From: a virus
Direction: 5' to 3' (one strand)
Length of the DNA: 64,000 nucleotides
IMG/VR virus record: IMGVR_UViG_3300030380_006185
Coordinates: 1-64,000 of that record
Part shown: in pieces, positions 1-64,000 of the stretch
How positions within the stretch are numbered: position 1 is the stretch's first letter
How the letters are laid out: every line of letters starts with the position of its first letter
The notes under the pieces: generated by a model
Told to the model about the DNA's origin: nothing
Database searches by the model: none
Seen by the model: the letters and a program-made list of their open reading frames with translations, nothing else
Position numbers and translations under genes: made by a program

Positions 1-3000
1 CTGTTGCAGATGAGCTTCCTGTATCAGCACTTCCTGTATCAGCACTTCCTGTATCAGCACTTCCTGTATCAGCACTTCCTGTATCAGCACTTCCTGAATC
101 TGGAGCTGGTGCAGTAGATGATCTTTGTTCAGATGATCCACTTCCACTACCGTACGCTATTTCATCAGAATGTTTTACAGCATAGATAACATGAGAATCG
201 CTTACATTACCAGTATACAGTAATTTTACAGCTCCTACAGCTACACCTTCTCCAGGTAAGCTATCTAAGTCAGTGTAAGCTACAGCCTCTTGCCAGTCTA
301 CCCCTTCAGTAAGAAGTTGACCATTTAAAAAGACTTGTACTGTACCTTGTTTAAATCCAGTTAAACAAGCTTGAGAATATAAACCTATTAGATCACCATT
401 ACCATTAGCTACTGTATTTACAGAGATTGATTGTAAATGGTTATCTTCTAGTCTATCCAAGTGGTTACTTACTTCACTAAATGAATCTAAAGCTGTTACA
501 TCTGTGTTAGAGATTATATCAGTGATTTTACCATCTAATTCAGCATCAGCAGCAGCAAATTCTGAACGGATAGCAGCTCTATCAGCTGTAGCAGCAGCAT
601 TAGCAGCAAGATCAGCAGCAGCAAATTCTGAACGAACCGCATCTCTATCAACTTTAGCTGATTGGAATGCAGTATCAGCATCAGCTTCATTTTGATTAAC
701 GTCAGCTTGTAATGCAGCGATTACATTATCATGAACAACTTTTTCATTTTCTTGCTTTAATTCTTGTGCATCTAGTGCAGCTTGAATAGCAGCTTCAGCA
801 GCTAATGCTCTAGTTTCTTCAGCAGAGATTGCAGCATCAGCGTCACTTTCGTTTTTATCAACGTCAGCTTGTAATGCAGCGATTGCAGCATCAGCATCAG
901 CTTCATTTTGATCAACGTCAGCTTGTAATGCAGCGATTGCAGCATCAGCATCACTTTCGTTTTGATCAACGTCAGCTTGGACAGCAGCTACAGCAGCATT
1001 GTTAGACAATACATAAGCAGCAAATGCATCATCATTCTCAGTATCAACAGAGTTGATTAAAGTAACGATTTCAGCAAAGCTATCTTTGTCAGCATCAGAA
1101 GCGTCTAAAATTGCATCAACTCTTGCTTCTTCAGTTGCCATTCTTGCAGCAAAAGATGAAGAGTTAGCAGTATCAGCAGCAGCGAATTCTGAACGGATTG
1201 CAGCTCTATCAGTAGTAGCTGAAACAAAATCAGCGTCTGTAGCAGCAATTTCAGCAGCTAATGCAGCATCGTTAGATGTTTCATAAGCAGCTAAATCACT
1301 AGCAACATTTGCTGTTTCAGTAGCAGCAGTTGAAGCATTAAAAGCCATTGTAGACTCAATAGATTGAGAAAGTGCAGTTCTTGCAGCAGTAGCTGAAGCA
1401 AAATCAGCGTCTGTAGCAGCAACTTCAGCAGCAAGTGCAGCGTCATTAGAAACTTTATAAGCATCTAAATCAGATTGAAGTGCTGTATCAGCAGCAGCAA
1501 ATTCTGAACGAATCGCAGCTCTATCAGTATCAGCATTAGATTTATCAGAAGCTTGTTTAGCAACTTGAGCAGCTAATGCAGCATCGTTAGATGTTTCATA
1601 AGAAGCTAAATCACTAGCAACTAAAGCAGTTGCAGCATCTTGTTCGGATTGTTTAGTATCAACTAAAGCTTTTGCATCTACAATTGCTTGGTCAGCAGCA
1701 GCTTTTGCAGCAGCGATTTCAGAATCTCTTGTAGATTCGTCAGCAGCCTGTTTAGCAACTTGAGCAGCTAATGCAGCATCGTTAGATGTTTCATAAGCAG
1801 CTAAATCACTAGCAACTTGAGAAGTTGCAGCATCTTGTTCAGCTTGTTTAGTATCAACTAATGCTTTAGCGTCAACAATCGCTTGATCAGCAGCAGCTTT
1901 AGCAGTAGCAATTGCAGTATCTCTTGCAGATTCATCAGCAGCTTGTTTAGCAACTTGAGCAGCTAATGCAGCATCGTTAGAAACTTCGTAAGCAGCAGAT
2001 TTAGATACTTCTGTTGCAAGTGCAGCATCGTTAGATAATACATAAGAAGCAAATGCATTGTCGTTCTCAGTATCAACAGCGTTGATTAATGTTACGATTT
2101 CAGCAAAGCTATCTTTATCAGCATCAGAGGCAGCTAAGATTGCGTCAACTCTTGCTTCTTCAGTTGCCATTCTTGTAGCAACAGAAGATGAAAGTGCGCT
2201 ATCAGCAGCAGCGAATTCTGAACGAATTGCAGCTCTATCATTAGTAGCTGAAGTGAAATCAGCATCTGTAGATGCAATTTCAGCAGCTAATGCAGCATCA
2301 TTAGAAACTTCGTAAGCAGCTAAATCACTAGCAACTAAAGCAGTTGCAGCATCTTGTTCAGCTTGCTTGGTGTCAACTAATGCTTTAGCATCAACGATAG
2401 CTTGATCAGCAGCAGCTTTTGCAGCAGCAATTTCAGAATCTCTTGTAGATTCATCAGAAGCTTGTTTAGCAACTTGTGCAGCAAGTGCAGCATCGTTAGA
2501 TGTTTCATAAGCAGCTAAATCACTAGCAACATTTGCTGTTGCAGTATCTTGTGCTGTTTGTTTAGCATCAACCAGCGCTTTTGCGTCAATAATTGCTTGG
2601 TCAGCAGCAGCTTTTGCAGCAGCAATTTCAGAATCTCTTGTAGATTCGTCAGCAGCTTGTTTAGCGACTTGTGCAGCTAAGTTATTTGTTAAAATTGTAT
2701 CAGCAGCTTCATAAGCAACTTTTGCAGCATCATCAGCAGCAATTCTTGCAGCAGTTTCAGCAGCATCATCAGCAGCTTGTTTAGCAACTTGAGCAGCTAA
2801 TGCAGCATCATTTGATAATACATAAGAAGCAAATGCAGCATCGTTTTCAGTATCAACAGCGTTGATTAATGTTACGATTTCAGCGAATGAATCTTTATCA
2901 GCAATTGAAGCACTTAAAATTGCATCAACTCTTGCTTCTTCAGTTGCCATCCTTGCTCCAAATGAGCTAGATAGTGCTGTATCAGCAGCAGCGAATTCAT

Positions 3001-4276
3001 TTCTAATTGCAGTTCTGTCAGTTGTAGCTAAAACAAAATCAGCATCTGTAGCAGCGATTTCAGCAGCTAATGCAGCATCGTTAGAAACTTCGTAAGCAGC
3101 TAAATCACTAGCAACATTTGCTGTTGCAGTATCTTGTGCTGTTTGTTTAGCATCAACTAATGCTTTAGCATCAACGATAGCTTGATCAGCAGCAGCTTTT
3201 GCAGCAGCAATTTCAGAATCTCTTGTAGATTCGTTAGATGCCATTTCAGTTCTAATTAATGCTCTGTCAGTTGTAGCAGCAGCATCATCAGCAACTTGTT
3301 TAGCTTCTTGAGTATCTAATGCAGATTGAATACCAGCTTCAGCAGCTAATGCTCTAGTTTCTTCAGCAGCGATAGCAGCATCAGCATCAACTTCGTTTTG
3401 ATCAACATCAGCTTGAAGTGCAGCAATAGCAGCATCAGCATCAGCTTCATTACCATCTACATCAGCTTGAAGTGCAGCAATAGCAGCATCAGCATCAGCT
3501 TCGTTTTGATTAACATCAGATTGTAATGCAGCAACAGCAGCATCGTTAGATAATACGTAAGCACCAAATACATTATCATTTTCTGTATCAACAGAATTGA
3601 TTAATGTTACGATCTCAGCAAAGCTATCTTTATCAGCATCAGCAGCTAATAATACAGCGTCCATTCTAGCTTCATCAGCCGCTAATCTAGTAGCAACAGA
3701 AGATGAAAGTGCGCTATCAGCAGCAGCAAATTCTGAACGAATCGCAGTTCTATCAGTATCAGCAGCAACCTTTTCAGATTCTTGCTTGGCTTCTTGTACA
3801 TCTAATGCAGATTGAATTGCAGCTTCAGCAGCTTCAGCTCTTGCTTTCTCAGTTGCATCAGCAGCAGCAAATTCTGAACGGATTAATGCTCTATCAGAAT
3901 CAGCAGCAACCTTTTCAGATTCTTGCTTGGCTTCTTGAGTATCTAAATCCGCTTGAATAGCAGCATCAGCAGCTTCATAAGCAACCTTTGTAGCATCATC
4001 AGCAGCTTTAAATTCTGAACGGATAGCAGCTCTATCAGTGTCAGCAGCAACCTTTTCAGATTCTTGCTTAGCTTCTTGAGTATCCAATGCAGATTGAAGA
4101 CCAGCTTCGGCAGCTTCAGCTCTTGATTTTTCAGTAGCATCAGCAGTACTTAAGTTAGCCAAATCATCTACTAATCCAGGTAAGTCATTTTTTACAATAC
4201 CTGAAGGTTCAACGATTGTGGCGTTGTTTAGTATTTTATCGGATTGTTTATCCAATACTATTTTTGTATTTGCCAT
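1..4276 (-). CDS. Giant Ala-rich repeat protein, probable tail fibre/adhesin (C-terminus beyond window)
   Basis: The frame is open from ATG at 4276 to the left edge (1425 codons seen, no stop), so the gene is partial. It starts MANTKIVLDKQSDKIL. It then consists almost entirely of Ala/Asp/Glu-rich helical repeats such as AADTDRAAIRSEFAAAD, ALVDTKQAEQDAATA and DKDSFAEIVTLINSVDTEND. The last of these occurs four times (DNA near 1060-1110, 2085-2135, 2865-2915 and 3600-3650). A 5-residue DAAIAALQADVDQNEAD-type series marks further units. From about 250 to 500 a beta-rich segment with VFLNGQLLTEGVDW resembles phage fibre domains, followed by GSADT repeats. Similar heptad-like repeats are known in marine T4-like tail fibres; host-binding fibre is an inference. 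It follows the neck genes, is the last gene seen of the late cluster, and has no close late promoter. Confidence 0.8.
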   Translation of the reverse strand, partial: MANTKIVLDKQSDKILNNATIVEPSGIVKNDLPGLVDDLANLSTADATEKSRAEAAEAGLQSALDTQEAKQESEKVAADTDRAAIRSEFKAADDATKVAYEAADAAIQADLDTQEAKQESEKVAADSDRALIRSEFAAADATEKARAEAAEAAIQSALDVQEAKQESEKVAADTDRTAIRSEFAAADSALSSSVATRLAADEARMDAVLLAADADKDSFAEIVTLINSVDTENDNVFGAYVLSNDAAVAALQSDVNQNEADADAAIAALQADVDGNEADADAAIAALQADVDQNEVDADAAIAAEETRALAAEAGIQSALDTQEAKQVADDAAATTDRALIRTEMASNESTRDSEIAAAKAAADQAIVDAKALVDAKQTAQDTATANVASDLAAYEVSNDAALAAEIAATDADFVLATTDRTAIRNEFAAADTALSSSFGARMATEEARVDAILSASIADKDSFAEIVTLINAVDTENDAAFASYVLSNDAALAAQVAKQAADDAAETAARIAADDAAKVAYEAADTILTNNLAAQVAKQAADESTRDSEIAAAKAAADQAIIDAKALVDAKQTAQDTATANVASDLAAYETSNDAALAAQVAKQASDESTRDSEIAAAKAAADQAIVDAKALVDTKQAEQDAATALVASDLAAYEVSNDAALAAEIASTDADFTSATNDRAAIRSEFAAADSALSSSVATRMATEEARVDAILAASDADKDSFAEIVTLINAVDTENDNAFASYVLSNDAALATEVSKSAAYEVSNDAALAAQVAKQAADESARDTAIATAKAAADQAIVDAKALVDTKQAEQDAATSQVASDLAAYETSNDAALAAQVAKQAADESTRDSEIAAAKAAADQAIVDAKALVDTKQSEQDAATALVASDLASYETSNDAALAAQVAKQASDKSNADTDRAAIRSEFAAADTALQSDLDAYKVSNDAALAAEVAATDADFASATAARTALSQSIESTMAFNASTAATETANVASDLAAYETSNDAALAAEIAATDADFVSATTDRAAIRSEFAAADTANSSSFAARMATEEARVDAILDASDADKDSFAEIVTLINSVDTENDDAFAAYVLSNNAAVAAVQADVDQNESDADAAIAALQADVDQNEADADAAIAALQADVDKNESDADAAISAEETRALAAEAAIQAALDAQELKQENEKVVHDNVIAALQADVNQNEADADTAFQSAKVDRDAVRSEFAAADLAANAAATADRAAIRSEFAAADAELDGKITDIISNTDVTALDSFSEVSNHLDRLEDNHLQSISVNTVANGNGDLIGLYSQACLTGFKQGTVQVFLNGQLLTEGVDWQEAVAYTDLDSLPGEGVAVGAVKLLYTGNVSDSHVIYAVKHSDEIAYGSGSGSSEQRSSTAPAPDSGSADTGSADTGSADTGSADTGSADTGSSSAT
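15..104. repeat. 15-bp tandem repeat inside the fibre gene
   Basis: Unit cttcctgtatcagca starts at 15, 30, 45, 60 and 75, with a diverged sixth unit at 90. It encodes a (GSADT)n linker on the minus strand. The array reaches nearly to the window edge, so more units could lie outside. Such exact in-frame arrays are prone to copy-number change. Confidence 0.95.
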
Positions 4277-4374
4277 ATAGGTTAAAATTTAAAAGTTAAA
4301 AAAAAAATAAGGTGAACCCGTGCATTACTATATCAAAAATAGATATAAAACTTTATTAAAAAAATAATAAAATT

Positions 4375-8557: not shown

Positions 8558-10213
8558 TTATACAGAAGCTAAATCACTTACAAAGATACGTCCGAAGAAT
8601 TCAGGTCGAATCATCTTCTTAGCGTAACGAGTCAAGAGACCTTTACGTGGTGTAAATGTATCTGGATCGTACACTAGTGGAGTCATAATTAATGGAACGT
8701 ATGGGGCAAATACTGCTCCTGTTTCCAAGAATTGTGAACCTCTGTATCCCATTAAAATAACATTCTCAGTCATATATGGGTTTTTATAAACAGTGTAACG
8801 GTTGTTCAAGTTACCTGATTTTTGGATACCAAATGCGTAAGACGCTTTTGAAGCATCACCATCAGATGTTGAAGCAAATCCTGGGATTGATTCAAGAACT
8901 GTAGCAACTGATGGAGAACATACTAACCAGTTAGCACCACCTCTAAGGGTCTTTTGGTGAATCTTGTTAGATACTTTCTGCATTTTAGTTCCTAAAGTTT
9001 GGAACCATTGTCCTTGTGTGTTGAAGAATCCTAAATCATCATATCCTGTTTTAGCAGCATTTAAAGATTTATTTGATACAGCGCTCCAGTGCTCATCAGC
9101 AGCAGAAGCATCTTGAATTAACATATCCAAGTTTTCCAAATCAATTTCTAATGAAATATATTCACTCATGATTGAAGTTAATTCCGCTTCAGCATCCAAA
9201 GATTGGTAAGCGTTCAAATCTTGAGCAAATTCTGGTGTCCATTGTGCTTTCAACTTACGTGTTTTAGCAACAATAGCCTCAGATTTCATTTTGATATCAA
9301 TTTGAGGGATAGCTAATTCATCTGCAGATGTTGAACTTGCGTTAGCAAATCCAGCTCCACTAGCATCTTCAAAATCACCTCTATTATTATCAGTTGGTTG
9401 TTGGTTATACAATGCAGTTACTGTAGCACCATCTAAAGGCACAGTACCTGTAGCATCCATTACAAAAGTAATGAGCTTATCAGCTGATGACTCATCAACA
9501 GAAGTATATTGTGGTAAAATAGCTGCTTCTGAACCATTTATAGAGAATGCTCTAACACCTTTAAAGTCAGCTCTTGGTAAATCAGAACCTGAAATAATTA
9601 CAGATTTAAGGTTACCACCAGCAGCTATAGAAGCTGAAAGTTCAGCATCATAATTAACCATAGTCCATTCAGCATCATCTACTGTAGCAGTTGATGAAGC
9701 AGAGAATTGGTTGATTGTGTAACCAAATCTACCAGCACCATAAAGACCACCTGATGGGTCAGCATCTGCGCCTGGATCTGTGTTACCATACATTGAAGCA
9801 GGTGAAGTATAAGCATCTCCAGCTGGTCCAAAGTTTATTTGCTTGTCTTGTCCATATTGGAAATCAAGGAAAAATACAAGACCTGAAGGTAGATTCATTG
9901 GTTGAACAGACATGAATTCTTTAGTTGATAAAGAACCAAATACTTTTCTTACCAATGGAAGAGCTACACCAGCCCATTGCTCACCTTGTCCAACTGAAAA
10001 AGTACCACCACCTTGGTTGGTAGCAGAAGCTTCAGTTACAAGCTGTTTAGCTTGGTTTTCGAGGATCATCGCCATATTGTTTTTTTCAATCTCGTTTCCA
10101 AGACCTTCTAACAATCCGGTTTTACCCCATTTTGATGCCATTTTAGCAGCATCGCTCTGCAAGTTTTTATAACTGTTTGCAGAGTTTTCGAGTAATGAAT
10201 TAATTGTTGACAT
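8558..10213 (-). CDS. Major capsid protein, gp23-like
   Basis: A 551-aa protein, close to T4 gp23 (521 aa). It shows gp23-type features: 'KEFMSVQPMNLPSGLVFFLDFQYG' after an N-terminal pro-piece, 'LKAQWTPEFAQDLNAYQSLDAEAELTSIMSEYI' in the middle, and an end 'GRIFVSDLASV'. Residues 1-61 are a polar helical pro-piece ending LVTE/ASATNQGG. T4 gp23 is cut by the gp21 protease after residue 65 at LTE/A, so cleavage after Glu61 is the likely equivalent. A strong terminator follows, isolating a capsid transcript, which is consistent with high expression. No obvious late box is seen at its own start; it is probably co-transcribed with the scaffold gene. Confidence 0.95.
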   Translation of the reverse strand: MSTINSLLENSANSYKNLQSDAAKMASKWGKTGLLEGLGNEIEKNNMAMILENQAKQLVTEASATNQGGGTFSVGQGEQWAGVALPLVRKVFGSLSTKEFMSVQPMNLPSGLVFFLDFQYGQDKQINFGPAGDAYTSPASMYGNTDPGADADPSGGLYGAGRFGYTINQFSASSTATVDDAEWTMVNYDAELSASIAAGGNLKSVIISGSDLPRADFKGVRAFSINGSEAAILPQYTSVDESSADKLITFVMDATGTVPLDGATVTALYNQQPTDNNRGDFEDASGAGFANASSTSADELAIPQIDIKMKSEAIVAKTRKLKAQWTPEFAQDLNAYQSLDAEAELTSIMSEYISLEIDLENLDMLIQDASAADEHWSAVSNKSLNAAKTGYDDLGFFNTQGQWFQTLGTKMQKVSNKIHQKTLRGGANWLVCSPSVATVLESIPGFASTSDGDASKASYAFGIQKSGNLNNRYTVYKNPYMTENVILMGYRGSQFLETGAVFAPYVPLIMTPLVYDPDTFTPRKGLLTRYAKKMIRPEFFGRIFVSDLASV

Positions 10214-11666: not shown

Positions 11667-12299
11667 CTACATTACAGGACAGGTGCCCTTAGCGCATAGT
11701 ATTTCGGTAATAATTGAATTAGTGCGTGCATATGGATGAAGGAATGTAGATCTAGATTCATTTAATTGACCATTTTTCATCCAAGAATCTGGGTTTGATG
11801 GGTTAGATACTAAATCCCAAGTAAGTAATTCAAAGTCATCTTGTACTTCCATTACTTCACCCATTTGTTTTAATGAACCCATTCCACGAGAAGATATACC
11901 TATAATTAAACCATTTTTAACTAATGCTCCTGCTATACGGCCAGATTCAGTTCCAAGTGGGCCTTCATCACAAAATATTTCTACTTTACCTATTATTTCA
12001 TCTCCATCCCATCTTAATTCTCTAATAGCGTGTGATGCATTTTTTAGGTTAATTACTTGTGAATCAGGATGATCTAGTTCACCACAAGTTTCTGTTGATT
12101 TTTGGTCTATTTTCTTTTGGAAATTACCAATTTCACGTTCCCATAACTCTTTTTTATAATATCTACCATTACCATTTTTAACTTCAACAGTAGCTAAAAC
12201 ACCTTCAACGAAAATATTTCCACCTCTGTTTAATCCTTCTACAAGTCGAACAGGACTTGGTTTAAATTGTCTAGTTTCTATTAAGAGTTCTTTGTTCAT
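11667..12299 (-). CDS. Prohead core protease, gp21-like
   Basis: A 210-aa protein matching the T4 gp21/herpesvirus-assemblin-like serine protease fold. The segment 'NGNGRYYKKELWEREI' is followed by the catalytic His in TCGELDHPDS (His77). The Ser region is GISSRGMGS (Ser136/137), and the strand after it is FELLTWDLVSNPSNP. T4 gp21 (about 212 aa) cleaves core and capsid proteins at (L/I)xE sites during head maturation. Its start overlaps the stop of the 608-aa core gene by 4 nt (ATGA), so translation is coupled. This gene matters for interpreting the LIKE-type N-terminal tags found across the window. Confidence 0.93.
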   Translation of the reverse strand: MNKELLIETRQFKPSPVRLVEGLNRGGNIFVEGVLATVEVKNGNGRYYKKELWEREIGNFQKKIDQKSTETCGELDHPDSQVINLKNASHAIRELRWDGDEIIGKVEIFCDEGPLGTESGRIAGALVKNGLIIGISSRGMGSLKQMGEVMEVQDDFELLTWDLVSNPSNPDSWMKNGQLNESRSTFLHPYARTNSIITEILCAKGTCPVM

Positions 12300-14123: not shown

Positions 14124-14555
14124 CTATTTTTCTGTTAATAGTTCTTTTATTTCTTTTAAATAGTTTTTAACTATTTCTATTGGTTGTGTGATATCATATG
14201 AACCAGCGTTTCCACCATATAATTCAATTGTATCATTTTTTGCATTAGAAACTAATGGTGTTATTTCATTCATTAATTTCTCAATTTCATCTAACCCAGC
14301 TATACGTTGTTTTTGGAAATCATTCATTTCCCATAATTTTTTCTTATCGTATGATTTGGGTTTTATATTAGGAACATTTTTAAATCCTAATTTATAGTAA
14401 TAAATATTCTTAGCTCCTTTAGCATTCTTATTTTTATTAAAAACAGTTGGAGTAGCATAGTTAGCCCCTTCGCCTGGGGTAAAAGAAGCGCCACCTTGGT
14501 TAGTAGCGGACATTTCTTTTAATTTATTTCTTACTATTTCTTTAATTCTATCCAT
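14124..14555 (-). CDS. Putative core protein sharing the capsid cleavage-site motif
   Basis: A 143-aa protein. It begins MDRIKEIVRNKLKEMSATNQGG and continues ASFTPGEGANYATPTVF. SATNQGG followed by F-x-x-G-x-G recurs right after the predicted cleavage site of the major capsid protein (LVTE/ASATNQGG, TFSVGQG). The preceding LKE fits the (L/I)xE protease rule. The rest is Lys/Asn-rich and ends in a helix (YLKEIKELLTEK). It overlaps the upstream gene by 8 nt. I infer a minor capsid or core protein processed in the prohead; its exact role is unknown. Confidence 0.6.
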   Translation of the reverse strand: MDRIKEIVRNKLKEMSATNQGGASFTPGEGANYATPTVFNKNKNAKGAKNIYYYKLGFKNVPNIKPKSYDKKKLWEMNDFQKQRIAGLDEIEKLMNEITPLVSNAKNDTIELYGGNAGSYDITQPIEIVKNYLKEIKELLTEK

Positions 14556-29468: not shown

Positions 29469-30041
29469 TTATTTCTTAAGATTTTTTAAATAATTAATTC
29501 CTTCTTCCATAGCTGTATTGGCACGGTTTTTGTCAATTCCACCAACCCATTTTTGTATATCACCCGCCTCTGTAATATAATTATTATTACTTTCAGAAAG
29601 CATATCTTCCATAAAACTTTTATATTCTTCAATATTAATATCTATTTCTTTATTAAACGTAGTATTAATATACTCTTCCCATTTACCTTCATTCTTTAAC
29701 TTTGTTTCAGTAGTTGCTCTACAGTCAACACATTCTCCATAAGCTTTATAGTAATGTGGGTCTAACTGTTTATCCATAACTTGTTTACAGTTTGGACAAA
29801 ATATTGGAACAGCAACGTTTTTAAATTTATCTAATTTTGTTATATTTTCTTTTATACCATCTCGAATAGTCCATGTTTTACCATCTTCTTCCCAAACATC
29901 ACCTTCTTTATGTGAAATTGATTCTTCACCATTATAACCTATACCAGTTGTAGTTTTATTACCTGTCTTACCTTTTACTAAATTTCTAAGGCGTTCTACA
30001 TCTCGTTTTTGGAATTGTTTTTTTAATACTGAATCTGACAT
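29469..30041 (-). CDS. Zinc-ribbon protein
   Basis: 190 aa. 'FCPNCKQVMDKQLDPHYYKAYGECVDC' forms a CxxC...CxxC zinc ribbon (Cys at about 82, 85, 105, 108). Preceded by a basic helix (KKQFQKRDVERLRNLVKG) and a beta segment 'GDVWEEDGKTWTI'. The C-terminal half is helical, with EDMLSESNNNYITEAGDIQKW. Similar zinc-ribbon proteins occur in T4-like marine phages. It could bind nucleic acid or another protein. ATG overlaps the preceding stop by 1 nt. Confidence 0.55.
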   Translation of the reverse strand: MSDSVLKKQFQKRDVERLRNLVKGKTGNKTTTGIGYNGEESISHKEGDVWEEDGKTWTIRDGIKENITKLDKFKNVAVPIFCPNCKQVMDKQLDPHYYKAYGECVDCRATTETKLKNEGKWEEYINTTFNKEIDINIEEYKSFMEDMLSESNNNYITEAGDIQKWVGGIDKNRANTAMEEGINYLKNLKK

Positions 30042-30586
30042 TATATTTCTAGTTGTTTAAGTTGATCAATTGTATTTTCTGCTGATGTATATAATATTCC
30101 TATACCTCCTGCATTATTCCAATTATCAATTGTGCTTGCCTTATCGTCTATAAGTATGTCTGATTTGGTTAAAGATGGTTTAATTTTATGTTTTTCTTTT
30201 GCAGGTTTAAAATTAACTTTAGGTGTATTAGGGAATAAATCAGAATGGATTTTACGTAACCATATCATTTTCCCTAATCTTGATTGTTTTTTAATAGAAG
30301 GGGCAGTTAATATTTCATAATCATATTGTGAAACATAATCTACTAATTTTTTAGCCCCAGGCATTAATGGTATACCAGCCCAAAATCTAACTTTATTTTC
30401 TATATCTATAAAATCCCAAAATTGATTCATACCATATTTATCTCTATATTCATCAGGTGTCATTCCAGATAAATCTAAAAATCGTTGGTCAAAATCAGCT
30501 ATTACACCATCCATGTCTAAATAGATAGTATACGCAGATACTTCATTTTCTTTAATTAATTTATATAATTCAAATAAATTTGACAT
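30041..30586 (-). CDS. HAD-family 5'(3')-deoxyribonucleotidase-like protein
   Basis: 181 aa. Motif I YLDMDGVIADF (Asp24, Asp26), motif II in ILTAPS (about 93-98), a conserved Lys in KPAKEKHKI (about 128-136) and motif IV DILIDDKAST (about 143-152) define a HAD phosphatase close to the 5'-nucleotidase (NT5C) group. It would dephosphorylate (d)NMPs. An N-terminal extension LFELYKLIKENE before motif I is not part of the HAD core and resembles the recurrent tag, so the enzyme may be packaged. The tag is inference; enzyme class is well supported. Confidence 0.8.
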   Translation of the reverse strand: MSNLFELYKLIKENEVSAYTIYLDMDGVIADFDQRFLDLSGMTPDEYRDKYGMNQFWDFIDIENKVRFWAGIPLMPGAKKLVDYVSQYDYEILTAPSIKKQSRLGKMIWLRKIHSDLFPNTPKVNFKPAKEKHKIKPSLTKSDILIDDKASTIDNWNNAGGIGILYTSAENTIDQLKQLEI

Positions 30587-30588
30587 GG

Positions 30589-33156
30589 TTAAAATTTAGG
30601 TAAACTTAATGCTTTTCTTCTACTTCTCCAAAGATTTAATATTATTTGTTTATCTTTAGGAGTAATATCTTGGGCATCTAAATAAGTATTTATTACATCT
30701 GCAAATGGTCTTCTTTCTTTTTTAGCTCTAAAATACATTCCTTGTAAATTAGCATCTACTTCTTTTGGTAATTTAAAATATTCAGCTTGTGGAATTATAT
30801 CAGCTTTTACTAAAGCTCGTATTGTCATATCAAAATCTTCATCAAAATCTTCCTTTTTAGTTTTTGAGTCACCTGATTGGGTTATGTGTTCAATTTCATG
30901 TCTTACAACATCTTTAAGATTCATAGAAATTTCTTCCCAAAATTTAGGCAACATTTCAGGATCAACTATAAAGTTTATTTTAATAAAACCAGGGTATTCT
31001 TTTTTCTTTTTTTTATCTATGTAAGCATAATCACTTCCACCATCTACTTTAAGTTTACCAAATTTGGGTTTGTATATTATTTGTGCATAAACTTGAATAC
31101 CTCTTGGAGGAAAATCATAATTATCTTCATATGTTGAATCCATTTCACCTTCATCAAAATCTTCTTTCCAAAAATTAAATATATCTCTTGAAATTTGGTT
31201 TGATAAGGTATCATAACGACCTTCTTCTAAAGTAGCTAATTCTCTAGCAAATTGATTTAAACCAAAAGGATCTTTACCTAAATTTTTATCAAATCCATGT
31301 TTATGCTTATATGGTTTTTCCTTTTCATTTAAACTAGTAACTTCTTCTCCGTCTATTCCATCTGTGTAATTTCTAAAAAGCATATTACCTTTTGTATATG
31401 CTTCTCTTTCTATATCATTTAAATAATCATCTTCCATTGTGTTAGTAGTACTAATATCTTTTAGTCTACCTTCTAAATTTTGAATATGATGAATCATTTC
31501 ATGAGCATATGATCTTACTATATCTTTAGGATGTCTACCTTCAGTATATAATACTATTATTTTATTGTTTGGATCATAATATGCAGTTTTACCTAAAAAT
31601 TTTTTAGCATTTTCTTCATTATTGTGCTTAAATATTATTTTAGGTAAAGGTTTAACATTCATACCTTTTTTTAACATATGATCTGTTAAATTTATAATTT
31701 CTTGCTTATAGTCTATATGATTAGAATATGTAGCATTTTCATTAAGTGGTTTATATCCCGAACCAAACGGAGCAGCTTTACCATTATGGTCAGGAGCAAC
31801 ATTTTCTTTTTTTAGTTCTGGGTGGAATTTCATATAAACTTCCTTAGCATCAGGTTTAATTGATTCATCATCTACTAATACTTCAACAGGATATACTTTA
31901 GCATCATCTCCATACCAATAGTTCATTTTATATCCACCTTCTTTAGTTAATTCAACAATTAATCCTCTATTATAGTCTTCACTTTCAGCTTGCAGGTATA
32001 TTTTTTTACCTCTTGGTAAAACTAAAGATGTTTTTTCTAAAATATCTTCATTTAAGTTTTCTTCTAAATTTTGATTTACAGGAATTTGTCTTACATCTTT
32101 AGGGCCAAAATTAGAAGGATAAGGTTCTATAATATTACTTATTTTAATATTATTTTCTTCCATAGTAATTTCAAATGGGGATGGGGAAACATTAGTATAA
32201 TAATCATAATAAAATTTAACTTTATCAAAATTAGTATCTATAGCTTCATTAGTTTTTTGTTTTTTTAAACGTTGAGTTTTTTTCTTAGATGCTTCTTTAC
32301 GTTTTTTAATATATTCAAAAGCAGAACGTAATTTAGCTTTCTTTTGAGGATCTTTTGTTCTACTTAAAGCAGCTCTTACTCTTTGGTGTATTAAATTAAT
32401 TACTTGAGATTGACGAGCATGAGATTTAGATTTAAAAGAAGTTTTATTTAAAGTATCTATTATGTCTTGTCTTGTAGAAAATTTAACTTTAACAGTATCT
32501 TTTGGATTTTCATCTGTATACAAACGTCTACCTGATCCTTTAGGTTTTTTACCTGTACCTTTTTTAGGATCACCTTCATTTAAAGTAGATGATGTTAAAA
32601 TATTCCAAATTTCATCTAGATTAGCATTAATAGGTATAAAAAATTTAAAAACTTCTTTATCATTATTCATTAATGCTTTTCTAGCATTAGTACCACTCAT
32701 TCCACCATCTGGGGTAGATGTTATTTTTAAATCTAAATTTGGATGTTTATCTATAGATACTGATCTAGCTGATATATCTTGCATATCATCTTCTCTTCCT
32801 TCTCTTGCTCCTATAATCCAATATATAGAATCTTCAGGATTGTCTTTAGCATATCTATAAATATCTCCAATTGGGGAAACTGATTTTTCTATTCTGACTG
32901 GTTTACCAATTAAAGGTTTATAATGTTCATCCCAAATTTTATATGCTTGATCTTGTGTAATCCCATCTCTTACTTTACTCCCAACATAAATTATAATATT
33001 ATCTATTTCAGGATTATCTTTTAAGGCATTTTGAATTACAGCTAAATGACCTGCAGTAGGTGGTTTAAATCCACCACCAAAAACAGCAGTAACCTCTTTA
33101 CCATCTATACTTTCAGGTAAAAGATCTTTAATGAGTGATTTAGTTAAGGAATCCAT
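30589..33156 (-). CDS. Multidomain nucleotidyltransferase plus twin HEXXH metalloprotease-like protein
   Basis: An 855-aa fusion. Residues 1-16 are tag-like (LTKSLIKDLLPES). Residues 20-185 are a HIGH-type cytidylyltransferase/NMNAT-like domain: GGGFKPPTAGH (27-37) and GMSGTNAR (152-159). Residues 195-300 are a basic module (KKPKGSGRRLYTDENPKD, then ASKKKTQRLKKQ). Residues 360-455 hold a small beta domain. HEMIH at 552-556 with IEREA (582-586) fits a gluzincin-type Zn peptidase. HEIEH at 753-757 marks a second peptidase-like domain. Such multi-enzyme chains recall the 'polyvalent proteins' of phages. Cleavage by the prohead protease into separate units is possible. Confidence 0.75.
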   Translation of the reverse strand: MDSLTKSLIKDLLPESIDGKEVTAVFGGGFKPPTAGHLAVIQNALKDNPEIDNIIIYVGSKVRDGITQDQAYKIWDEHYKPLIGKPVRIEKSVSPIGDIYRYAKDNPEDSIYWIIGAREGREDDMQDISARSVSIDKHPNLDLKITSTPDGGMSGTNARKALMNNDKEVFKFFIPINANLDEIWNILTSSTLNEGDPKKGTGKKPKGSGRRLYTDENPKDTVKVKFSTRQDIIDTLNKTSFKSKSHARQSQVINLIHQRVRAALSRTKDPQKKAKLRSAFEYIKKRKEASKKKTQRLKKQKTNEAIDTNFDKVKFYYDYYTNVSPSPFEITMEENNIKISNIIEPYPSNFGPKDVRQIPVNQNLEENLNEDILEKTSLVLPRGKKIYLQAESEDYNRGLIVELTKEGGYKMNYWYGDDAKVYPVEVLVDDESIKPDAKEVYMKFHPELKKENVAPDHNGKAAPFGSGYKPLNENATYSNHIDYKQEIINLTDHMLKKGMNVKPLPKIIFKHNNEENAKKFLGKTAYYDPNNKIIVLYTEGRHPKDIVRSYAHEMIHHIQNLEGRLKDISTTNTMEDDYLNDIEREAYTKGNMLFRNYTDGIDGEEVTSLNEKEKPYKHKHGFDKNLGKDPFGLNQFARELATLEEGRYDTLSNQISRDIFNFWKEDFDEGEMDSTYEDNYDFPPRGIQVYAQIIYKPKFGKLKVDGGSDYAYIDKKKKKEYPGFIKINFIVDPEMLPKFWEEISMNLKDVVRHEIEHITQSGDSKTKKEDFDEDFDMTIRALVKADIIPQAEYFKLPKEVDANLQGMYFRAKKERRPFADVINTYLDAQDITPKDKQIILNLWRSRRKALSLPKF

Positions 33157-33901
33157 TTATTTTACTTTTTATTTGGTCTTGGGATGTAAATTCAGGTAAG
33201 TCTGAGAGTAGTTGTTTAATAGAGGATTCAAGTTCTTGTTGTTCAGCTTTCTTTTTTTCTATTTCTTCGTCACTATATTCACGAGCAGCAGTTACTTGAT
33301 CAAAATAATTTTGAACTTCTTTTTCATTATATGTTTTATCTACTCCTTTAGGGTCATTATTTACTAAAATAAAATTATCTCCAAACATGTTTTGAAAAGT
33401 ATTAATATTTTTATTTACTTTTTCCCAAGTACGAACTATAATTGAAGGGCGAAGTGATCTACCTCCTGCTTCTCCTCTAGATCTATTACGTTCTAAAGAT
33501 ACAAGTGGTGAAACATATATCATTACCATCATTGTATCATATCCTAAATCTTCTAATTGTGTTTTTTTCTTTAATATAGGATTTGAAGCTGCTCCGGTAC
33601 CATCAATTATAATACTTTCTCCCTCTTCTTGAGCAGATTGTAGTTTTGCTGTTGTTTCTTTACGAGCTCTACTCATTAATTTAGATGATTGAGACAATTC
33701 ATCTGAAGTAAAAGTTGATTGAGGTTTATCTAAGCCTGCTTGTTTAAGTAATTCTTCATATGTGTCATCTACATTAATTACTTTTAAATTAGGGATATTA
33801 TTTTTAATAAAAGTGGATTTACCACTTCCTGCAGGTCCAGCTAAAAATATGGCTTTAGGTGGGGATTGGATCTCTTTTAATAGTTTTACTAGACTTACCA
33901 T
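33140..33901 (-). CDS. Zeta-toxin/AAA_33-type P-loop kinase with N-terminal tag
   Basis: 253 aa. Residues 1-12 (MVSLVKLLKEIQ) are tag-like with LKE. The P-loop is GPAGSGKST (22-30). An Asp pair VINVDDTYE (about 42-50), a strand GESIIIDGTG (about 93-102) and an Arg-rich lid LERNRSRGEAGGRSLRP (about 134-150) match the zeta-toxin/polynucleotide-kinase-like group. The C-terminus is coiled coil. It could phosphorylate a nucleotide sugar, a nucleic-acid end or a nucleotide; not decidable here. Overlaps the 855-aa gene start by 17 nt. Confidence 0.7.
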   Translation of the reverse strand: MVSLVKLLKEIQSPPKAIFLAGPAGSGKSTFIKNNIPNLKVINVDDTYEELLKQAGLDKPQSTFTSDELSQSSKLMSRARKETTAKLQSAQEEGESIIIDGTGAASNPILKKKTQLEDLGYDTMMVMIYVSPLVSLERNRSRGEAGGRSLRPSIIVRTWEKVNKNINTFQNMFGDNFILVNNDPKGVDKTYNEKEVQNYFDQVTAAREYSDEEIEKKKAEQQELESSIKQLLSDLPEFTSQDQIKSKINGFLN

Positions 33902-59953: not shown

Positions 59954-60121
59954 TTATACTTTATTTATTAAATCACTTACTTCTTTTCTAAATCCTTCAT
60001 CCTCCAAATACTTCTTACCATTTGTATACCACCATTCCTGAGATACATAACCAATAATATCATCTACAAATACTAAATTGTAGGACTTATAATAATAACC
60101 TCTTAACATTGTTTCTAACAT
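59954..60121 (-). CDS. Small early protein, 55 aa
   Basis: MLETMLRGYYYKSYNLVFVD then DIIGYVSQEWWYTNGKKYLE. The early cassette lies immediately upstream, which supports its being a true gene. Unrecognised. Confidence 0.6.
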   Translation of the reverse strand: MLETMLRGYYYKSYNLVFVDDIIGYVSQEWWYTNGKKYLEDEGFRKEVSDLINKV

Positions 60122-60127
60122 ACTATC

Positions 60128-60154
60128 TTTTTTTAATTATACTACAATATACAA
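60128..60154 (-). promoter_or_regulatory. Early promoter/leader cassette 3
   Basis: Minus strand TTTGTATATTGTAGTATAAT then TAAAAAAAGAT before ATG 60121. Confidence 0.7.
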
Positions 60155-60166
60155 ACTTAGTATTAA

Positions 60167-60221
60167 TAAGGTTAGTCCTTTTACAAACAAAAAACCATTT
60201 TTCATTATTGAACTAACCTTA
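60167..60221 (-). terminator. Hairpin after AT-hook gene
   Basis: 10-bp perfect inverted repeat taaggttagt/actaacctta with a 35-nt loop, just past the stop of the AT-hook gene and before the next cassette. The loop is long and no U-tract follows, so terminator function is uncertain. Confidence 0.4.
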
Positions 60222-60235
60222 CTATCTAACTTAAT

Positions 60236-60565
60236 TTATTTATTTACAACTTCATTACTATCTTCAACCTTTACTTTTTTAGGTCGTCCTAATTTTAAAG
60301 TTCCATTTTTTCTTTTTTCTTCTAATTCCTTTAACCTAATTTGTCTTACACTTAAAGGATTCACTTTTCTACCTCTTAACTCAATTCCATTTTCTCTATT
60401 AAACTTTTTTCTTTCAAGTTCCTTTTGTCTAACACTATTTTCATTAACAGGTCGTCCTCTTTTCAACTCACCATTTTTTCTTTTTTCTTCCAATTCTCTC
60501 AACCTAATTTGTCTTTTACTATTCACATTAACAGGTCGTCCTAATTTTACACTTACTTTTTTCAT
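60236..60565 (-). CDS. AT-hook repeat protein, 109 aa
   Basis: Four AT-hook-like motifs (LGRPVN, KRGRPVNENS, LRGRKVNPLS, LGRPKK) separated by near-identical basic helices (IRLRELEEKRKNGELK; IRLKELEEKRKNGTLK), about 30-35 aa per unit. Net charge strongly positive. AT-hooks bind AT-rich minor grooves. As an early gene it may bind the phage genome, host nucleoid or early promoters. Early cassette upstream. Confidence 0.75.
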   Translation of the reverse strand: MKKVSVKLGRPVNVNSKRQIRLRELEEKRKNGELKRGRPVNENSVRQKELERKKFNRENGIELRGRKVNPLSVRQIRLKELEEKRKNGTLKLGRPKKVKVEDSNEVVNK

Positions 60566-60582
60566 AACTTTTTTTTATTTAT

Positions 60583-60607
60583 TTTTAATTATACTATAAT
60601 ATACAAA
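60583..60607 (-). promoter_or_regulatory. Early promoter/leader cassette 4
   Basis: Minus strand TTTGTATATTATAGTATAAT then TAAAAATAAATAAAAAAA before ATG 60565. Confidence 0.7.
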
Positions 60608-60638
60608 TTATTTATTAATTTTAAAATTCCATAATGAT

Positions 60639-60824
60639 TTAAAAATCATCATGTTTCCCACTCCATTTACCAACGTATTTATCATTTTTATCATACACTT
60701 CCAATGTATAAATTTTATCTCCCCAAACATGCATTGGAGGACGTGCACTAACGATTATCCCATAAAAACCTTCCTCAGCTGGGAATCTTAATCCCGCGTC
60801 CTTCTCTAATTTAATTTTATTCAT
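60639..60824 (-). CDS. Hypothetical early protein, 61 aa
   Basis: MNKIKLEKDAGLRFPAEEGF then YGIIVSARPPMHVWGDKIYT. Beta-rich, possibly a small OB/SH3-like fold. Unrecognised. Confidence 0.5.
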   Translation of the reverse strand: MNKIKLEKDAGLRFPAEEGFYGIIVSARPPMHVWGDKIYTLEVYDKNDKYVGKWSGKHDDF

Positions 60825-60831
60825 TTTATCA

Positions 60832-60857
60832 TTTTTTAATTATACTATAATATACGA
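60832..60857 (-). promoter_or_regulatory. Early promoter/leader cassette 5
   Basis: Minus strand TTCGTATATTATAGTATAAT then TAAAAAATGATAAA before ATG 60824. Confidence 0.7.
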
Positions 60858-60862
60858 ATTAT

Positions 60863-61045
60863 TTATTTATTTGCTTCGTCCTGCATTATAACATAATCTA
60901 AAGTTTTATTTATTTGCCCTATATAGTGAAATATATCATCAATTAAATGTATTCCGTGATGATGATCCTCTACCAATTCGTTTAATTTAACTTTAAATTC
61001 TTTTAACTCTTTAATATCGTCCGTAACAAACCTTAATTTATTCAT
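60863..61045 (-). CDS. Hypothetical early protein, 60 aa
   Basis: Helical protein with a His-rich turn 'LVEDHHHGIHLIDDIFHYIG'. The His cluster could bind metal. Unrecognised. Confidence 0.5.
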   Translation of the reverse strand: MNKLRFVTDDIKELKEFKVKLNELVEDHHHGIHLIDDIFHYIGQINKTLDYVIMQDEANK

Positions 61046-61051
61046 ATGTTT

Positions 61052-61079
61052 TTTTTTTAATTATACTATAATATACAAA
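61052..61079 (-). promoter_or_regulatory. Early promoter/leader cassette 6
   Basis: Minus strand TTTGTATATTATAGTATAAT then TAAAAAAAAAACAT before ATG 61045. Confidence 0.7.
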
Positions 61080-61102
61080 ATAAATATTAATTAAAACATT
61101 CC

Positions 61103-61564
61103 TTACCCACAAAAAGCTCTTTTATCTTTATTTAACATTTCTTTTACCTCTTCATTACTTATTTCTCTAACCAACTCACCACTTTTCCAATCAAACCCCC
61201 ATATTCTCTTACTACTACATCCTGCATTAGTGAATACACAAGGAACTGCCATTACTTTAATACTTTTATTTTCTTTATCCACTACCAATTTATAATATCC
61301 ATAATCACCTCCATCACCATTATCTTCAATTTCAAACCCATCACAATCACTAAACCACTCATCAAAATATATATCATCAAAATCACCCTCATCCTCACTA
61401 TACACTCTATATTCTAAATCATCCTCACCCTTAATATCCAAATAATCTTCTTCACCATAATCATAACCACCACTTCCTAATAATGGTTCTCCATAATATA
61501 TTACCCTTAATTTTTTTAATCTTTCAACAATACCCAATTTTAAATATTCTTTTTTAAATTTCAT
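61103..61564 (-). CDS. Acidic early protein, 153 aa
   Basis: Very acidic middle ('YDYGEEDYLDIKGEDDLEYRVYSEDEGDFDDIYFDEWFSDCDGFEIEDNGDGGDYGYY'), beta-rich with a C-terminal helix. Such D/E- and Y-rich small phage proteins are often DNA mimics; this is speculation. No family recognised. Confidence 0.5.
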   Translation of the reverse strand: MKFKKEYLKLGIVERLKKLRVIYYGEPLLGSGGYDYGEEDYLDIKGEDDLEYRVYSEDEGDFDDIYFDEWFSDCDGFEIEDNGDGGDYGYYKLVVDKENKSIKVMAVPCVFTNAGCSSKRIWGFDWKSGELVREISNEEVKEMLNKDKRAFCG

Positions 61565-61569
61565 ATCTC

Positions 61570-61595
61570 TTTTTAATTATAATATAATATACAAA
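61570..61595 (-). promoter_or_regulatory. Early promoter/leader cassette 7
   Basis: Minus strand TTTGTATATTATATTATAAT then TAAAAAGAGAT before ATG 61564. Confidence 0.7.
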
Positions 61596-61611
61596 TTACT
61601 TATTAATTATC

Positions 61612-61797
61612 TTATTCCTCAAAACAACTTCTATCAACAAAAACACTATAATCATCACCAATACTACCACATAAATCAATTAAAAAACTTCTTAATTTAA
61701 CATCACTTTTTAAAATTAACCTTTCTTCTAGTTCACCACTATTATATAATTCTAACAAGTCATTATAAATTTTATTTACCTTTTCTTTATCTAACAT
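61612..61797 (-). CDS. Hypothetical early protein, 61 aa
   Basis: MLDKEKVNKIYNDLLELYNS, acidic helical, ends SVFVDRSCFEE. Unrecognised. Its cassette abuts the upstream terminator. Confidence 0.5.
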   Translation of the reverse strand: MLDKEKVNKIYNDLLELYNSGELEERLILKSDVKLRSFLIDLCGSIGDDYSVFVDRSCFEE

Positions 61798-61803
61798 ATT
61801 ACC

Positions 61804-61829
61804 TTTTTAATTATACTATAATATACAAA
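61804..61829 (-). promoter_or_regulatory. Early promoter/leader cassette 8
   Basis: Minus strand TTTGTATATTATAGTATAAT then TAAAAAGGTAAT before ATG 61797. Overlaps the T-run of the preceding terminator. Confidence 0.7.
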
Positions 61830-61850
61830 AAACCCCCTATATAAGGGGGT
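61827..61850 (-). terminator. Rho-independent terminator
   Basis: Minus strand ACCCCCT-TATAT-AGGGGGT (7-bp stem) followed by TTTTT, after the stop of the 194-aa gene at 61877. Confidence 0.88.
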
Positions 61851-61876
61851 CCTGTACAATATTTATTTTATTTTAT

Positions 61877-62461
61877 TTAAACAACTCTTTTTAAATCTTC
61901 AATTTCACCAGTTAATACCCACTTCCTAGTTACACTACAATATTTACCTACTTTTCTAAATCCTCCATCTTCCTCATTTAATACTCTATTCATATTAACT
62001 CCTTTCCATTTAATTTTAATAATTAAAGTAGTTTCCTTTTCTAACATTTCATTTTTATAATCAAACCAATTCTTACCCCAATTTTCTTCATATTTTAAAA
62101 AGAAATTCCTATACCAATACCAACTATAATCACTTAATTTACAAATTTCAACTTCATATTTACCAAAATCCTTACTATTTAAATAATCTTTTACTTTATT
62201 AAATTTTTCATTATCACTAATTAATCTATTTTTATCACTTAAACTATTATATACATCATCATTATAATTACTAATCCATCCTTTTAACCTTCTACACTCA
62301 CCTCCTTTAACACTATATAAATCATTATAACTAACATAAAAACTTAAATTTAAATCTTTAAATATTTTATTTAATAATTCATTTTTAAAATCATTACTTT
62401 CTTTTAATAAACCTTTCCTAATACTTTTTAACTCTTTTACTTTACTACTTTCCTTAAACAT
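61877..62461 (-). CDS. Hypothetical early protein, 194 aa
   Basis: Helix-rich, aromatic ('YSWYWYRNFFLKYEENWGKNWFDYKNEML'). No recognisable motif. Early cassette upstream and a strong terminator downstream make it a monocistronic unit. Confidence 0.5.
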   Translation of the reverse strand: MFKESSKVKELKSIRKGLLKESNDFKNELLNKIFKDLNLSFYVSYNDLYSVKGGECRRLKGWISNYNDDVYNSLSDKNRLISDNEKFNKVKDYLNSKDFGKYEVEICKLSDYSWYWYRNFFLKYEENWGKNWFDYKNEMLEKETTLIIKIKWKGVNMNRVLNEEDGGFRKVGKYCSVTRKWVLTGEIEDLKRVV

Positions 62462-62469
62462 ATTTTATC

Positions 62470-62495
62470 TTTTTAATTATACTACAATATACAAA
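62470..62495 (-). promoter_or_regulatory. Early promoter/leader cassette 9
   Basis: Minus strand TTTGTATATTGTAGTATAAT then TAAAAAGATAAAAT before ATG 62461. Confidence 0.7.
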
Positions 62496-62510
62496 TTTTT
62501 ATTAAATAAC

Positions 62511-62533
62511 AGAAGTCCTTTAACAGGACTTCC
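62511..62533 (-). terminator. Probable terminator hairpin
   Basis: 8-bp perfect stem gaagtcct/aggacttc with loop ttaac, 22 nt past the stop of the 137-aa gene. Only a weak T-rich stretch (TGTTATTTAAT) follows. Confidence 0.5.
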
Positions 62534-62554
62534 ATTACTATATATAATTAAAAA

Positions 62555-62968
62555 TTAACTCTTAAATTCTTTACTTACAAAATCCTTAACCATATTATTA
62601 ATTAATTCTTTAATATCAATTCCTTTATCAATACCATTTAATATTAATTCTTTTTCAATATTTCTTTTACAATTATAATCAACACTTCCTACAATATTAA
62701 ACAAATTTTTATTTTCCTTATAACCATATCTTCCTACACTATTATAAGTAATTCTAATATTAAATTCATCATTAACCTTATTAACAAAATCATTTAATTC
62801 ATTTTCTAATTTTTCCTTTTTTAATTCTACTTCTCTTAATTCCTCTAATAAACTAAAATCAACATTTTCATTAACAATTTTTAAACATTTATCATTAACT
62901 TCCTCTACAACTTTACTATAAACTTCATTACTAACAACATCTAACTCAATTCTACTTAATTTACCCAT
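62555..62968 (-). CDS. Coiled-coil early protein, 137 aa
   Basis: Helical start 'LDVVSNEVYSKVVEEVNDKC', coiled coil 'LEELREVELKKEKLENELNDF', and a short beta region 'NIRITYNSVGRYGYKENKNLFN'. Ends in a helix. Unrecognised. Confidence 0.5.
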   Translation of the reverse strand: MGKLSRIELDVVSNEVYSKVVEEVNDKCLKIVNENVDFSLLEELREVELKKEKLENELNDFVNKVNDEFNIRITYNSVGRYGYKENKNLFNIVGSVDYNCKRNIEKELILNGIDKGIDIKELINNMVKDFVSKEFKS

Positions 62969-63007
62969 AATTTACCTTTTTTAACTTTTAATTTTTAATA
63001 ATTTAAC

Positions 63008-63033
63008 TTTTTAAATATAATATAATATATAAA
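63008..63033 (-). promoter_or_regulatory. Early promoter/leader cassette 10 (diverged)
   Basis: Minus strand TTTATATATTATATTATATT. It is further (about 40 nt) from ATG 62968 than the other copies and lacks the usual TTTG/TTCG. Confidence 0.5.
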
Positions 63034-63057
63034 ATTTCTATTAAAATAAATATTCCT

Positions 63058-63411
63058 TTATTTTATCTCTTCAACAAATTCTTTAAAACCTTCCCAATAA
63101 AAATTACTATATTCCATTCCTATAGTACTATAATATAAATCATCTTCACTAGTATTCATATCTAATACTTCTTCCATACTAATTTTATTTTTTCCTTTAA
63201 TACACATTAATTCAGGTTCAATCATTTCACCATCTTCATCAGATTTAAATTCATTCATAATATGATCATTCATTACTTCATAAACATCTCCTTTATAAAA
63301 TACATCACTAAAACAATCTTTCCATTCATCACCTACAAACATTTCTTCATCAATTCTGTAATCAACAATTCCTGTACATACATCTTCAATAACTCTAAAT
63401 TTTCTTCCCAT
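63058..63411 (-). CDS. Hypothetical early protein, 117 aa
   Basis: Acidic, beta then alpha: 'KFRVIEDVCTGIVDYRIDEEMFVGDEW' and 'FYKGDVYEVMNDHIMNEFKSDEDGEMIEPELMCIKG', resembling a small SH3-like phage fold. No family recognised. Confidence 0.5.
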   Translation of the reverse strand: MGRKFRVIEDVCTGIVDYRIDEEMFVGDEWKDCFSDVFYKGDVYEVMNDHIMNEFKSDEDGEMIEPELMCIKGKNKISMEEVLDMNTSEDDLYYSTIGMEYSNFYWEGFKEFVEEIK

Positions 63412-63422
63412 TTTATTTTATC

Positions 63423-63448
63423 TTTTTAATTATAATACAATATACAAA
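63423..63448 (-). promoter_or_regulatory. Early promoter/leader cassette 11
   Basis: Minus strand TTTGTATATTGTATTATAAT then TAAAAAGATAAAATAAA before ATG 63411. Confidence 0.7.
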
Positions 63449-63464
63449 TTTCTAGTAAATTAAA

Positions 63465-63650
63465 CTATTCCTTTAATTTTTTAACCAATTTATTAAACAT
63501 TAATTCCAATTCTTTACTTTCATCCCTATTTAATATTACATTTTCAAATAAGTTAATAGGATTTATTTCTACCACTGTGTTGTTTTCTAGTATAACATCT
63601 GTAGTGTAAATATCTCTATTGTCAGTACCTTTTATTTCAACTCTTTTCAT
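63465..63650 (-). CDS. Hypothetical early protein, 61 aa
   Basis: MKRVEIKGTDNRDIYTTDVI, two-strand beta start then a helix 'ELELMFNKLVKKLKE'. Unrecognised. Confidence 0.5.
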   Translation of the reverse strand: MKRVEIKGTDNRDIYTTDVILENNTVVEINPINLFENVILNRDESKELELMFNKLVKKLKE

Positions 63651-63655
63651 AATAT

Positions 63656-63681
63656 CTTTTTAATATACTATAATATACGAA
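63656..63681 (-). promoter_or_regulatory. Early promoter/leader cassette 12
   Basis: Minus strand TTCGTATATTATAGTATATT then AAAAAGATATT before ATG 63650. Confidence 0.65.
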
Positions 63682-63689
63682 TAATCTTT

Positions 63690-63791
63690 TTATAATAAAC
63701 TTCCTGGGTAATATAGGTTTGTTTGGTTGGGTACAAACCTGAAAACCATCCCGTTACCTCTTGCATTACTCAGTAACCCGCTAGCAAACAT
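63690..63791 (-). CDS. Possible small gene, 33 aa, GC-richer than neighbours
   Basis: MFASGLLSNARGNGMVFRFV then PNQTNLYYPGSLL. Open frame on the minus strand just before the next cassette, without a cassette of its own. Codon use and GC are unlike the surrounding AT-rich genes. It may be a remnant or chance. Confidence 0.25.
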   Translation of the reverse strand: MFASGLLSNARGNGMVFRFVPNQTNLYYPGSLL

Positions 63792-63825
63792 TGTAATCCC
63801 CGTTCTAGTAGGGTAATAAACTATT

Positions 63826-63984: not shown

Positions 63985-64000
63985 AACCTTTTTTTAAATA

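Follow-up and report, generated by a model that had tools for sequence, protein, structure and literature searches.

A mosaic multi-enzyme protein of a marine T4-like phage carries prohead-protease-type motifs at its module joints

The window analysed here (64,000 nucleotides; positions 1-64000 of a virus record 156,273 bases long) encodes a gp23-type capsid protein, a gp21-type prohead protease, a portal and a terminase, which identify the carrier as a T4-like myovirus, in this case a marine one. Among cultured phages, Flavobacterium phage immuto has the closest capsid protein (59.8% identity), which makes a flavobacterium or a related member of the Bacteroidota the probable host. An 855-aa ATG-initiated open reading frame (P0001) spans exactly 30589-33156. 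The first-pass annotation had recognized this chain; we correct its strand to minus (33156 -> 30589), the plus strand over 30589-33156 containing many stops. All of the enzyme motifs named there are present (GGGFKPPTAGH at residues 27-37, GMSGTNAR at 152-159, HEMIH at 552-556, IEREA at 582-586 and HEIEH at 753-757) and conserved across homologues, which excludes chance. The description of one chain uniting a HIGH-type enzyme with two peptidase-like domains holds for the motifs, but it overlooked the modular mosaic, the head-protease-type sites at the joints and the wider set of tagged proteins in the genome to which the chain belongs.

P0001 contains six of the common segments of its family, and all of its features, like both neighbouring genes, lie on the minus strand (the polyprotein gene, assigned from the ORF and its homologues, at 30589..33156). 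Residues 1-15 (33112..33156) form a capsid-targeting-sequence-like leader, MDSLTKSLIKDLLPE, with a predicted cut before S, as judged by comparison with the T4 capsid-targeting sequence (CTS; PMC9026906). Previously noticed as a tag-like N-terminus, it proves to be a conserved 15-residue leader of the form M-N/D-x-L-x-K-x-L-[IV]-x-x-[IL]-L-x-E. It is followed by a nucleotidyltransferase assigned from profile matches and motifs (residues 16-194, 32575..33111, ending TLNE) and a basic (pI 10), Lys-rich module that begins GDPKKGTGKKPKGS and includes a second segment (residues 195-370, 32047..32574, ending NLNE). The earlier 'lysine-rich linker' is real, and is a separate conserved basic module of ~ 104 aa that occupies other positions in relatives. 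A 96-aa stand-alone protein of Pelagibacter phage HTVC033P (gp40) matches it (46% over 52 aa), so the module exists beyond the T4-like group too. A DILEKT..VLPRGKK..GGYKMNYWYG module with the linker peptide GKAAPFGSGYKPLNE (residues 371-473, 31738..32046) precedes the HEMIH domain, which starts NATYS and ends SLNE (residues 474-611, 31324..31737). The short linker peptide KPYKHKHGFDKNLGKDPFGLNQFARELATLEE (residues 612-645, 31222..31323) recurs in relatives between other modules and at C-termini, and the phage-only HEIEH domain, starting GRYDTLSN (residues 646-855, 30592..31221), closes the chain. Upstream lies a Zeta_toxin/AAA-type P-loop kinase with the leader MVSLVKLLKE (33140..33901), and downstream an NT5C-type 5'-nucleotidase with the leader MSNLFELYKLIKE (30041..30586; the Pfam family was assigned on the window gene).

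Profile hits, weak but in agreement with one another, suggest that residues 16-194 are a HIGH-superfamily nucleotidyltransferase, and its homologues conserve GGFKPP..GH and SGTxxR. The first-pass assignment to the NMNAT/cytidylyltransferase type is sound at the level of the superfamily and not at that of the substrate: profiles cannot tell NMN, NaMN, pantetheine phosphate and CTP apart, best scores against curated NMNAT models (NadR/NadM/NadD) fell far under the cut-offs, and CoaD was matched equally. A role in NAD+ reconstitution (NARP2-like) is not supported because neither the full record nor immuto encodes NadV/NAMPT.

In the HEMIH domain, HExxH and a subsequent E are invariant (alignments of 24 and 31 homologues), and R-HE-x-EH is invariant in 21 HEIEH homologues; cultured immuto keeps both HExxH. 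Structure prediction upholds one of the two proposed zinc-peptidase-like domains. The HEMIH domain is predicted to fold like a minimal zincin, with an HExxH helix and a downstream third ligand. Most top PDB fold matches of its model are metallopeptidases (IrrE/PprI, selecase/jannalysin, Spartan), and the best Foldseek match, IrrE, is fold-level, not family-level (E 0.025, probability 0.99, TM 0.43). Pfam MPTase-PolyVal reached only E 0.069, in 3 of 31 homologues, and the HEMIH alignment, run as a profile against the PDB, returned DARPin artefacts only. The HEIEH domain, in contrast, yielded a confident model (pLDDT 84.7) with no PDB fold match, no match in the PDB profile search, and scattered chance matches only in Pfam. 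Its relatives are exclusively uncharacterised phage proteins, and only the conserved HExxH with a downstream E suggests zinc binding. Aligned by hhalign, the two domains pair HExxH...E with HExxH...E, weakly (probability 19%).

P0001 is part of a large mosaic-polyprotein family whose members occur in aquatic T4-like phages. Family sequences came mostly from metagenomic viral contigs, together with gp088 of cultured immuto, and each ORF was started at its first ATG. There are 48 module (motif) orders among 107 nonredundant homologous ORFs, the longest of which is 1602 aa, and relatives (viral-contig homologues and gp088) swap, gain and lose modules at LxE joints. Modules in relatives include an Fe/Mn superoxide dismutase (SOD; PDB profile E 2e-45; Pfam Sod_Fe), a blue-copper domain of plastocyanin/pseudoazurin type (E 2e-13; Pfam Copper-bind), zinc ribbons, an HD domain, DUF6267, DUF6934, GNAT, a pol-beta-type palm, a Zeta_toxin-type kinase and an NT5C-type nucleotidase. 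Several unrelated catalytic domains occur per polypeptide, as is definitive of polyvalent proteins. The viral collection contains at least 588 relatives of the HEMIH module and 158 of the HEIEH module. That the HEMIH domain is of cellular origin was considered and rejected: it occurs at 9 loci only in 84,980 species genomes, and those that match clearly sit in metagenome-assembled bins, probably on phage contigs.

The sequence at module joints is [L/I/V]-N-E or L-x-E, typically LNE, and in a larger homologue set the onset of homology often coincides with the L of LNE. Among left breakpoints of homology in the redundancy-reduced set (107 ORFs), [LIV]NE occurs at 123 of 739, compared with a mean of 14.6 and a maximum of 29 in 1000 composition-preserving shuffles of residues within the same windows (z = 28.7), counts that are phylogenetically non-independent and not separate events. 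The looser [LIVM]xE occurs at 320 of the 739 versus 173 in shuffles, i.e., at under half of the breakpoints. Neither [LIVM]xK nor [LIVM]xD is enriched at breakpoints, and reversed motifs are only slightly so. Before the HEIEH (GRYD) module, P1 is E in 60/60 distinct true contexts, after omission of 7 further regex matches that are false and fall inside the nucleotidyltransferase. P3 is L, I, V or M in 62/63 (tallied with a regex that fixed P1, whereas the P1 figure is from a separate context survey), and P2 and P4 vary. Before the HEMIH (NATYS) module, E occupies P1 and L, I or V occupies P3, each in 53/53. All four [LIV]NE of P0001 lie at module borders, and six further [LIVM]xE lie within modules, so cleavage is not determined by the motif alone. 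Cleavage by the T4 prohead protease gp21 follows L/I-X-E, and in T4 IPIII processing is inhibited by an Asp at P1 (PMC9026906). The joint pattern of the P0001 family equals this published specificity, and a gp21-type protease is encoded in the same genome.

This prohead (head maturation) protease (11667..12299, minus strand; phrog_207, E 3e-49) holds an LNE of its own near the C-terminus (SLNE in the immuto counterpart, gp070). The gp23-type major capsid protein (8558..10213, minus strand) has a probable propeptide site at QLVTE↓ASATNQGG (QIVSE↓ANVTG in immuto gp066). A small head-region protein (14124..14555, minus strand) has a leader ending NKLKE↓MSATNQGG, sharing its post-cleavage peptide with the capsid protein; SATNQGG lies just past the probable E↓ site in both, and immuto has a similar site pair (capsid protein and gp072). 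Elsewhere in the window, a long, highly repetitive Ala/Asp/Ser-rich coding stretch with degenerate tandem repeats and a GC content high for the genome occupies 1-4280 on the minus strand, and 60001-64000 has an extreme GC skew (-0.68) over small minus-strand ORFs, unlike the remaining window. Beyond the window, the full record appears by eye to encode GroEL-like chaperonin and small-heat-shock-like proteins (102801-104444 and 105164-105589) and genes resembling those of queuosine/7-deazaguanine biosynthesis, in QueE-, QueD-, QueC-like order (112136-114311). A PADLOC search returned nothing useful.

T4 internal proteins have capsid-targeting leaders of 10-19 residues that are cut at L/I-x-E (PMC9026906). 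The leader of P0001 is likewise 10-19 residues long and ends in L/I-x-E, a pattern whose bare regex is non-specific. Most of ~ 90 distinct homologue N-termini have a leader ending LxE (e.g., MNELTKFLVDGILNE and MNSLVKSLIQPILE), and a minority are without one (MAKIGLYGGGFKPP, MSKIIAAYGGGFKPP). Single modules also occur as genes with a leader and LxE, for example SOD (MINLIQLLTE), HEIEH (MKYIKMFESFTLNE) and EDIL. Unrelated proteins of the same genome have only their first 18-20 residues in common, ending at LNE or INE: one group comprises MKNFDLKKYLAENKLLNE, MENFNLKKYLAENKLLNE (residues 1-18) and MKEFNLKKYLAENKLLNE, another MKHSQLKKLIKEEIRSVLNE, MKHSELKQLIKEEIRSALNE, MKPSELKQLIKEEVHNALNE and MKYNSLRTLVKEELKKAINE, and a tag over residues 1-20 reads MKxSxLKxLIKEEIxxxLNE. 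Pairwise similarity between tagged proteins stops at the E or a few residues from it. The leader tag is found on 79/79 neighbouring kinase genes and 43/43 nucleotidase genes, but these counts alone prove nothing, since control genes match the loose N-terminal [LIVM]xE regex too (primase 48/60, exonuclease 17/18). Genome-wide, the leader regex matches 51 genes versus 34 expected by chance, which is not decisive. We therefore place weight on the joint statistics and on the endpoint of tag similarity.

Outside the window, at 97666-101286 of the full record, small unrelated genes carry the leader MKHSxLKxLIKEEIxxxLNE or MxxFxLKKYLAENKLLNE; this cluster is a putative island of head-cargo proteins. 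The peptide RMQKLAGI/RWQKLAGI, seen at the C-terminus of a scaffold-like protein and in N-terminal leaders (immuto gp083 and gp067; record 95179-95565), is possibly a shared core-binding signal.

Homologues show directly that the family expands when adjacent leader-tagged genes become fused in frame, with leader and cleavage motif left at the joint. The nucleotidase is fused in frame in L012, L089, L105, L107 and L169. The kinase is in frame with the polyprotein in L011, where its leader, GLSEFLVNNILNE, is retained at the internal joint, and lies inside the polyprotein in L105, where kinase and nucleotidase have both been added C-terminally, through the joints NIKE and FIKE. The L011 and L105 fusions suggest how such chains grow.

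So, what is P0001? We think it likely that this is a cargo polyprotein that is directed to the head, cleaved there into enzymes by the prohead protease and then ejected when the phage infects. The T4-like leader MDSLTKSLIKDLLPE would bring the chain into the prohead core, and the gp21-type protease would cut after L-x-E, following residues 15, 194, 370, 473, 611 and 645 as read from the joint sequences. Cutting would remove the leader and free a nucleotidyltransferase and a basic protein of ~ 20 kDa each, a protein of ~ 12 kDa, a zincin-like protein of ~ 16 kDa and the HEIEH protein of ~ 25 kDa. The freed enzymes would exit with the DNA and act early in the host, with nucleotide or cofactor pools and proteins as probable targets. 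The first-pass annotation had suspected a packaged, cut-up polyvalent protein, and the sequence evidence favours a chain that would be handled in this way.

Processing could instead be the work of the chain itself, if the embedded HEXXH domains, and not the head protease, cut it after packaging. Most family members contain the zincin-like domain, and Iyer et al. 2017 propose processing by the MPTase domain, citing P1 DdrB (PMC5512222). However, LxE joints also occur on single-module and unrelated tagged genes that are without HEXXH, and the joints resemble the capsid-protein and protease sites, with the P1 = E, P3 = L/I signature of gp21-type enzymes (PMC9026906); we consider self-processing unlikely. 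Slightly less likely still is an uncleaved, fused multidomain metabolic enzyme that is made in the cytoplasm during infection and in which LNE is just a hydrophilic linker, or a hot spot of recombination that each module brings along. Breakpoints do tend toward linkers, LNE moves along with module N-termini, and the literature searched contained no virion proteomics for immuto or relatives. Yet in-window shuffles that keep composition fall far short of the observed [LIV]NE, P1 and P3 are fixed as P2 and P4 drift in more than 50 different contexts, and unrelated tagged genes are similar to one another only up to the motif. The most doubtful of these alternatives is that proposed in the first-pass annotation, a single injected chain working as a nucleotidyltransferase and two zinc peptidases. 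It would account for the conserved motifs and the predicted zincin-like fold of the HEMIH domain, but each module can come, go or change place independently of the others, the HEIEH domain has no peptidase fold match, and the profile alignment with HEMIH is weak.

The cargo polyprotein reading finds parallels in several known systems. Like polyvalent proteins, the processing of which is credited to their own embedded metallopeptidase domain, P0001 and its relatives are mosaic multi-enzyme chains with metallopeptidase-like, GNAT and nucleotidyltransferase domains and predicted injection with DNA (PMC5512222). Unlike them, the P0001 family has joints of the prohead-protease type L-x-E and a capsid-targeting-like leader first, and includes SOD and blue-copper modules, words absent from the main text of that paper (PMC5512222). 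With T4 internal proteins and Alt, which have a CTS, the family shares a short leader ending L/I-x-E, the gp21-type protease and capsid genes, and presumed ejection; however, the T4 proteins give one product and lose a propeptide (PMC9026906), whereas the five internal joints of P0001 would give several enzymes. Head ejection proteins and the virion RNA polymerase of phiKZ/SPN3US are similarly cut after a glutamate motif by a head protease that is kin to gp21, although the SPN3US cuts identified so far, the protease's own apart, remove N-terminal propeptides and do not separate enzymes (PMC10052503). Immuto gp088 (NC_055915.1, annotated as NMN adenylyltransferase/NadR) is homologous over 62% of P0001 at 45% identity and, like it, has both HExxH domains and an NT5C nucleotidase neighbour, but it starts with a pol-beta-type nucleotidyltransferase and is without the Lys-rich and EDIL modules; at one of its joints, KVMAE precedes GRYDTVTNR. 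On our best reading, P0001 would work like a cross of polyvalent proteins (PMC5512222) and T4 capsid-targeted internal proteins (PMC9026906). No report of prohead-protease sites between the enzyme domains of one chain was found in the literature searched, which excepted most subscription journals.

We lean, somewhat, toward a wider reading in which an exchangeable cargo-polyprotein cassette is in use across a whole clade of aquatic T4-like phages: any gene given a leader and L-x-E would have its product loaded into the head, trimmed by the protease and injected, so that SOD, a blue-copper protein, nucleotide enzymes and zincins would arrive as separate proteins from one chain. If so, these chains would be a bacteriophage counterpart to the polyproteins that eukaryotic RNA viruses process, and the separation of polyvalent proteins into working parts would be explained by a head protease with readable sites. 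Leader plus L-x-E would then be a sequence rule that predicts injected phage proteins, testable on one cultured phage, immuto. Should this hold, phages that are abundant in aquatic habitats may supply the host cell with superoxide dismutase, copper protein, nucleotide enzymes and peptidase-like proteins in ready-made form.
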